Below, one piece after another: positions 18,600 through 19,884 of a stretch of 35,347 bases of DNA (positions are counted from its first letter, which is position 1; each line of letters begins with the position of its first letter). The notes under the pieces are model-generated. The model had not been told where the DNA came from. It did not search any database and saw nothing but the letters and a program-made list of their open reading frames with translations. Both the position numbers and the translations under genes were made by a program. This DNA is from an uncultured Bacteroidota bacterium. GTDB taxonomy: Bacteria; Bacteroidota; Bacteroidia; Chitinophagales; LD1. Where the stretch lies: NCBI GenBank assembly GCA_903889265.1, contig CAISWS010000386.1, positions 1 through 35,347 on the forward strand, read 5' to 3'.

Positions 18600-19070
18600 T
18601 TATTGCCTTTTGTCACCTAAAATTTCATCCAATCTTTGGTTCCGGTAATCAAAGATGCCGGATATCTGCTTTCGGATAAAAAGCAGGTGGGCTATTTCGC
18701 CGACAAAGCCGAAGGGCATTTTGTAGTTTACTATGTCTGTCATTTCAACCCCGTCCTCAACTTCCCTGAATAGATGAGTGTGGTGCCAGAGGTCATACGG
18801 GCCAAAGCGTTGTTCATCCACAAAGTATTCATTCTCCTTAACGTGTGTTATTTCAGTCATCCAGTTTAATGGTATGCCGAGCAAGGGTTTTATGGTATAG
18901 GTAATTATCTGACCTGCAAAGGCCTTATCGCCTGCTGATTGATAGGTTACCTCCATCTGCATATATCCAGGTGTAATTGCCCGCAGGTTATGCGGCGAGG
19001 AAAAATAATCCCAGGCGGTGTTTAAATCAATGTTTAATATTTTCTTTCTCTCCAGGTGATGGAATGCCAT
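18600..19070 (-). CDS. SRPBCC (START-like) family protein
   Basis: 156 residues. The sequence has the SRPBCC pattern: N-terminal strand, then ILNIDLNTAWDYFSSPHNL (helices), ITPGYMQ, and a long C-terminal helix (about 125-150) that closes a hydrophobic cavity. It is close to the COG4276 group of ligand-binding or cyclase/dehydrase-like proteins. Cytoplasmic, no signal peptide. Ligand is unknown. Its upstream region contains several GGTTTAAC-like half-sites (19095-19123) and, further up, a separate minus-strand small RNA gene ending in a terminator. Confidence 0.85.
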   Translation of the reverse strand: MAFHHLERKKILNIDLNTAWDYFSSPHNLRAITPGYMQMEVTYQSAGDKAFAGQIITYTIKPLLGIPLNWMTEITHVKENEYFVDEQRFGPYDLWHHTHLFREVEDGVEMTDIVNYKMPFGFVGEIAHLLFIRKQISGIFDYRNQRLDEILGDKRQ

Positions 19071-19164: not shown

Positions 19165-19203
19165 AAAAAAAGGGAGTGGGATTGAGGAACAATCCCGGCT
19201 CCC
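19165..19203 (-). terminator. Strong intrinsic terminator of the minus-strand small RNA
   Basis: On the minus strand GGGAG-CC-GGGATTG (19203-19190 side, bulge not counted) folds back on CAATCCC-A-CTCCC and is followed by seven T (19171-19165). The stem has two perfect blocks of 5 and 7 bp separated by a small internal loop, with a TTCCT loop. Among the strongest terminators in the window. Confidence 0.9.
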
Positions 19204-19357
19204 GAAGAATGGCCGGACCCAACTAACCTACCATCCTTAGAAATCTTAAATAAAAGGCTGTAATTATCTTTAACATCGGAACCAAAGCACGTGGCTTGCA
19301 GCGGTGTAAAACCCGGAGAGAATAATATGGCAGTTGCGTGTTTTCAATTGCTATTTG
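19165..19357 (-). ncRNA. Candidate small RNA of about 190 nt (6S-like size)
   Basis: A complete transcription unit without a credible reading frame: a consensus promoter at 19363-19393, expected start near 19357, and a strong terminator at 19165-19203. The interior has pairing potential: CCGGGTTTTACACC near the 5' third can pair with GGTTAGTTGGGTCCGG near the 3' third (four G-C pairs, several G-U), and AAGC-CACGT-GCTT can form a local hairpin. Length and long-hairpin tendency recall 6S RNA, but I cannot confirm the family. Alternative: a 5' leader or attenuator of the SRPBCC gene 95 bp downstream. The terminator and independent promoter favour a stand-alone RNA. Confidence 0.65.
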
Positions 19358-19362
19358 TAATG

Positions 19363-19393
19363 CAAAAATATGAATCCTACTTAATCTACCAAA
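19363..19393 (-). promoter_or_regulatory. Consensus Bacteroidota promoter for the small RNA
   Basis: On the minus strand TTTG (19393-19390) is followed by exactly 19 nt and TATTTTTG (19370-19363), matching the primary sigma factor consensus TTTG-N19-TAnnTTTG. It is the best promoter match I find in the window. Confidence 0.8.
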
Positions 19394-19445
19394 TAAGTAG
19401 ACTAATTTTAACTTTTAAAAAAAACATTGCGCCCAGCACTTAAAA

Positions 19446-19479: not shown

Positions 19480-19884
19480 ATGCTAAAACAAATTCTGCCC
19501 ATCATAGGGGCATCAATTTTTGTGTTGCTGGGTATTGCCCACCTTTATTACACCTTCTTAACCAATAAATTTAATGCCAGGGACGGTGCCGTTACAGAAG
19601 GCATGAAAAACACCCAACCGCTGTTAACGCGCCAAACGACGATTTGGAACGCCTGGATAGGCTTTAACGGCAGCCATAGTTTAGGTGCCATATTCTTTGG
19701 AATCATCAATATCATTCTATATACACAGCTATACAATTTTACCAGCACCTCGGTTTATATACAGGGTTTAAATGTTGCTATGTGCCTTTGTTATCTTTTT
19801 CTGGCTTTTAAGTATTGGTTTAAAACTCCGCTAGCCGGTATCGCTGTTGCAACGGTTTGTTTTATTTTGGGTTGGGTACTTTAA
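19480..19884 (+). CDS. Small integral membrane protein, four helices
   Basis: 134 residues with four hydrophobic segments (about 5-26, 66-84, 94-110, 115-133) and short loops. The N-terminal half contains a polar extracytoplasmic or cytoplasmic segment (NKFNARDGAVTEGMKNTQ) and the conserved-looking GFNGSHSLG before helix 2. It resembles the LIC_13387-type family of uncharacterised membrane proteins, though I hold that assignment loosely. Single gene with its own promoter. No catalytic residues are evident. Confidence 0.75.
   Translation: MLKQILPIIGASIFVLLGIAHLYYTFLTNKFNARDGAVTEGMKNTQPLLTRQTTIWNAWIGFNGSHSLGAIFFGIINIILYTQLYNFTSTSVYIQGLNVAMCLCYLFLAFKYWFKTPLAGIAVATVCFILGWVL

Follow-up and report, generated by a model that had tools for sequence, protein, structure and literature searches.

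A candidate small RNA of a putative sulfur/cysteine regulon, possibly derived from a cysteine leader, in an uncultured Bacteroidota bacterium

In the 35,347-nt contig analysed here (CAISWS010000386.1 of an uncultured Bacteroidota bacterium; hereafter the window), about 190 nt of intergenic DNA lie between a promoter-like motif and a strong terminator. Is this interval a gene in its own right, and if so, what controls it and on what might it act? The original prediction, made from the sequence alone, had read it as a complete small RNA gene, perhaps that of 6S RNA. Comparison with related genomes makes it very probable that the interval holds a genuine small-RNA gene not described before; its features are collected in Table 1.

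Table 1. Features of the small-RNA locus and its neighbours in the window
Feature	Position	Strand	Basis and remarks
Predicted small RNA, about 190 nt	19165..19357	(-)	Promoter-to-terminator span and homologue in G010:C76
Palindromic operator	19377..19404	(-)	Core TCTACTTATTTGGTAGA at 19385-19401, then TTAAGTAG; overlaps the -33 element; putative Rrf2-family site
-33 element TTTG	19390..19393	(-)	G010 reads TTAG, so not conserved there
-7 element TATTTTTG, Bacteroidota-type promoter	19363..19370	(-)	Pattern scan; conserved in G010
Small ORF, TTG start, MKTRNCHIILSGFYTAASHVLWFRC then stop	19270..19347	(-)	Relatives are polycysteine leader peptides
Hairpin 1	19205..19238	(-)	Invariant loop segment GGTTAGTTGGGTCC at 19215-19228
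Intrinsic terminator	19165..19203	(-)	Two-step stem GGGAG/CTCCC and GGGATTG/CAATCCC, T7
SRPBCC-like gene	18600..19070	(-)	Lies 95 nt beyond the terminator
Small membrane protein, LIC_13387 family	19480..19884	(+), divergent	NCBIfam NF047765, E 7e-33

The promoter pattern first described, TTTG-N19-TATTTTTG, is present on the minus strand at 19393-19363, and it is the only exact match to TTTG-N17..21-TAnnTTTG in the window. Shuffled sequences gave 2.06 matches on average, however, so the pattern is not above chance and proves nothing alone. The strong terminator was confirmed as a hairpin at 19203-19172 with 12 pairs, about -20 kcal/mol and a seven-T tail. As far as sequence can tell, the interval thus has its own promoter and its own intrinsic terminator, as expected of an independent intergenic small-RNA gene, and transcription would start near 19357. 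The original coordinates were right to within a few bases, but the element has to be extended upstream to about 19404 to take in a palindromic operator, TCTACYNANTNRGTAGA, which overlaps the promoter. Two features had been missed, this operator and a cysteine leader-type ORF within the RNA; they assign the element to a putative sulfur/cysteine regulon and make it likely that it originated as a leader.

The proposed relationship to 6S RNA, which has a comparable length and the same promoter-to-terminator layout, did not survive closer inspection. No Rfam 15 family, 6S included, reached its gathering threshold, and the sole match at E<=10 was a chance hit to a yeast snoRNA on the opposite strand. 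The full RNA folds no better than shuffled sequences (z -0.76), so the long imperfect hairpin that had been suggested is not exceptional, and the full-length fold of the G010 homologue differs from that of the window RNA. Only the 3′ half stands out: in each species it folded better than every one of 200 shuffled sequences (z -2.96 for the window, -3.42 for G010). We therefore rejected 6S RNA as a candidate, the window RNA having neither the covariance-model match nor, beyond chance, the long bulged hairpin that mimics open promoter DNA; membership of this or any other catalogued RNA family is contradicted already and extremely improbable.

A whole-genome search across 61 genomes found one homologue that spans the RNA's 5′ and 3′ halves; it belongs to G010, another species of the genus. 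A GTDB pattern scan with the conserved core returned the same organism, 'Bacteroidetes bacterium isolate bog_950', as its sole match. No third copy emerged from that scan or from a covariance model of the 3′ module run over 398 genomes of the order (the other matches of which were, judged by eye, generic terminators or coding sequence), and a pattern scan of viral contigs, plasmids and phages gave nothing. The G010 homologue retains the operator, the -7 box, the ORF and the 80-nt 3′ module, which consists of a hairpin with an invariant loop and the terminator. This module is 94% identical between the two species, compared with 53% (71/134) of the four-fold sites in the ABC gene and 56% (19/34) of those in mqo, which points to strong purifying selection in a genome without the downstream gene. 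With the module known from two species only, and hence two sequences to compare, the covariation check that had been proposed revealed no compensatory pair changes.

Gene order in G010 is kept on one side of the RNA, where the ABC substrate-binding gene and mqo are found; the flanking SRPBCC gene and membrane-protein gene are both missing. Conservation is thus independent of the flanking genes, as expected of a small-RNA gene, and the original reading of a discrete, terminated RNA gene is supported by this strong conservation in a species that has neither neighbour. On G010:C76 (L002/L041), mqo is cut to its C-terminal about 90 codons beside the RNA, and the ABC substrate-binding gene is intact. 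Among 30 genomes of the family, the SRPBCC gene was detected in 24; its label comes from the original prediction, the product of 18600..19070 having no Pfam or NCBIfam match. No LIC_13387-family membrane protein gene turned up in the remaining 29 genomes of the family; the one in the window, being divergent (19480-19884), could share the operator of the small RNA.

The window operator has no mismatches to the family consensus. In the window's own genome, a first scan located the palindrome at four places, preceding this RNA, a 1-Cys peroxiredoxin gene, a porin-like gene and a YeeE/YedE sulfur transporter gene, and a later scan added a site before a PhyH operon. Across the genus the operator also precedes DUF2061 genes and an Rrf2 regulator gene. 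A reversed-pattern control gave no matches in the own-genome, family and order scans and a few in the genus scan at two mismatches, so single weak sites in the genus are uncertain. Order-wide, the combination of operator and TTTG had 15 matches, with none in the control, and the sites precede Rrf2 genes, peroxiredoxin genes, and genes for APS kinase and PAPS-reductase-domain proteins. At L097 and L098 (G033 and G054), the genes behind the operator encode an APS kinase and then a PAPS-reductase-domain protein, which extends the predicted regulon to sulfate assimilation.

In L056, L051 and L086 the operator lies ahead of the Rrf2 gene itself; the window's genome has a single Rrf2 gene (G000:C250), and its divergent promoter contains a degenerate version of the motif. 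The operator is thus common to sulfur genes and the regulator gene, as would be the case in an Rrf2 regulon. Across the order, the genes that carry it apparently form a sulfur/cysteine regulon that includes the small RNA, and a single Rrf2-family regulator probably binds 19377..19404. From the operator associations and the known biology of CymR/IscR-type Rrf2 regulators, we infer that an Rrf2 protein binds here and that binding represses; the same biology is the basis on which release at cysteine or sulfur shortage is presumed. Like CymR/IscR-type regulons, the putative one described here has an Rrf2 gene beside its own operator and counts sulfur assimilation and peroxiredoxin genes among its putative members; unlike CymR and IscR, the regulator matches the Rrf2 superfamily and falls under both equivalog cut-offs. 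No RNA of this kind turned up in the open-access papers searched.

The original prediction saw no credible ORF between promoter and terminator, a view made doubtful by the frame at 19347-19270, which has leader-peptide relatives under the same operator. It comprises 25 codons and ends in VLWFRC and a stop, with one terminal Cys. The ORF at the same position in G010, MNRYYPHITIGNFYIGLSRVLWFRCCT, ends in VLWFRCCT and has two. In the PhyH operon of the window's own genome, the operator is followed by the leader ORF MKNTTSPYITRQMNVKHLSWYFRCCC (...WYFRCCC). Similarly, it is followed in G011 by MKNTRSNFSLFSPIKGKTVYRYIRCCCCC (...RCCCCC) before a PhyH-SDR operon, in G024 by the cysteine-run ORF MKNNTCIFLSSFQAAGAKTASRCCCCC, in G127, from another family, by MRHSATYYFYISDMCCCIHIPVMCCR before PhyH-SDR, and in G168 by MKSNSITIYHVRSGRCCCTSNI before a tRNA-Cys gene. 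The Cys run at the leader end thus comprises one residue in the window, two in G010 and up to five in the PhyH-operon relatives; three Cys codons in a row (TGYTGYTGY) are expected 0.011 times per 160 nt.

Several of these loci deserve mention in their own right. At L091 (G168), the operator lies near 1525 and the MKSNSITIYHVRSGRCCCTSNI ORF is followed by tRNA-Cys(gca) at 1674-1745, placing a cysteine leader before its own tRNA. PhyH-SDR operons of several genera (L101 in G000:C99, L102, L004/L047 and L088) have the operator and a polycysteine ORF upstream and no evident terminator. In L003 (G007:C394), at about 1500-1660, a stand-alone operator is followed by an ORF of 24 codons, the single Cys of which lies three codons short of the end, and then by a terminator; no gene follows closely on that strand, and the 3′ half of this element has no convincing sequence similarity to the window RNA.

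The peptide might itself be the product of the gene. A functional small peptide of about 25 aa, ending in VLWFRC and made in sulfur limitation, with the 3′ half as the tail of its mRNA, would account for the ORF position kept in G010 and for the shared ending, where the last six codons differ by one synonymous change, and the G007 locus offers another stand-alone, operator-driven ORF with a terminator. Against this, the 3′ tail is conserved far more than the ORF, the differences in the middle of the ORF have no third-position bias, and related peptides have little in common beyond R-Cys; none of the small peptides matches an NCBIfam family. We consider a peptide gene unlikely. The TTG start, the single terminal Cys and the unbiased middle make translation of the window ORF uncertain, and for the same reasons the window copy looks like a weakened cysteine leader.

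Weakening could also mean decay. A PhyH-type leader, once duplicated and now a functionless relic, would fit the weakened start codon, a number of Cys codons smaller than in the paralogue, and the narrow distribution; it is hard to reconcile with a 3′ module that is 94% identical against about 55% at neutral sites, or with an intact promoter and operator, and is, in our estimate, slightly less probable still than a peptide gene.

The main rival is a cis attenuator for the SRPBCC gene, in which ribosome stalling at the leader Cys codons would choose between termination and read-through into the gene at 19070. A leader-type ORF, a strong terminator and a same-strand gene 95 nt on are arranged as such a device would require, the PhyH operons of relatives are preceded by polycysteine leaders, and partial-length folds of both species contain a possible antiterminator, GGUUCCGA paired with UCGGGAGCC. 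This pairing is no better than in shuffled sequences, however (0.36 for the window, 0.07 for G010), and just one Cys codon is present, at the end of the ORF. Where SRPBCC loci were retrieved from relatives, all lacked the operator, and G010 keeps the RNA without the SRPBCC gene, beside a convergent mqo fragment. The SRPBCC-like gene is therefore probably an unrelated neighbour and possibly a read-through target, and we regard attenuation in cis as rather unlikely, if less so than the peptide gene or the relic.

Selection acts most strongly on the 3′ module, and the RNA has been kept in G010 with no gene behind it; we therefore favour an independent, leader-derived RNA: a stand-alone small RNA of the sulfur/cysteine regulon, controlled by an Rrf2-family protein and probably acting in trans. 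We put the probability of this reading at roughly 55%. According to it, a single Rrf2-family regulator would bind the palindrome covering the -33 element, and its release, presumably when cysteine or sulfur is short, would switch the RNA on. The transcript, with its cysteine-leader-type ORF, would run from near 19357 to the terminator at 19165. It would descend from a polycysteine leader like that of the PhyH-SDR operon in the same genome, since separated from any operon. Its selected function would lie in the 3′ half, where the hairpin may display the invariant loop GGUUAGUUGGGUCC for pairing with other RNAs, in addition to the terminator.

A candidate for such pairing is the leader of the paralogous PhyH operon. 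The loop can form 12 contiguous pairs with CAGCUAACCUGC in this leader, 26-37 nt before the start codon; none of the 45 start regions compared gives a better duplex (-19.8 kcal/mol), and 1% of random segments do as well. Eight regulon and neighbour genes, few in number, had been tested for loop pairing before the comparison of 45 regions, which makes the PhyH pairing only suggestive as a trans target. Apart from PhyH, no gene tested from the operator set or the neighbourhood paired with the loop better than shuffles, and in a 13-mer scan of G000 and G010 for complements of the loop, matches were no commoner than with the reversed control and none lay near a start codon. No PhyH gene was detected in G010, so this target cannot account for conservation of the loop there.

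Parts of this arrangement are familiar from other bacteria. In mycobacteria, short polycysteine ORFs have been described that act as attenuators responding to cysteine (Canestrari et al. 2020, PMC8764745, as cited in PMC13236596), and cysteine-run leader peptides have been predicted in Actinobacteria (PMC1262725). As in the mycobacterial attenuators, a short ORF with Cys codon(s) beside its stop lies close to the 5′ end of the transcript, and in relatives the Cys runs lie upstream of predicted cysteine/sulfur-regulon genes. Unlike them, the present element belongs to Bacteroidota, has an Rrf2-type operator and, in the window copy, one terminal Cys; moreover, the window RNA has its own strong terminator, and the sister species has no downstream gene. 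A leader-derived RNA and peptide that act in trans are known as rnTrpL/peTrpL in Sinorhizobium meliloti (PMC7298713 and reference 36 therein). There, too, a terminated leader RNA contains a leader-peptide ORF, and trans action is what we propose for the window RNA; rnTrpL is still attached to trpE(G), whereas the window element is free-standing and linked to sulfur/cysteine. In the open-access papers searched, we found neither a sulfur-responsive small RNA nor an Rrf2/cysteine-leader module in Bacteroidota.

A cysteine leader-peptide attenuator may have become detached from its operon and turned into a stand-alone, Rrf2-controlled trans-acting RNA, possibly one that acts on a leader of the parent operon type. 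Sulfur supply would then be read in three ways: through one transcription factor, through stalled ribosomes and through an RNA of the same module. We regard this fuller scenario as possible rather than probable. If correct, the analysis would provide a concrete operator motif and, for an order, the genes under its common control; it would also add a family of cysteine leader peptides, one of which precedes a tRNA-Cys gene, and a testable case of a cis-acting attenuator becoming a free small RNA.
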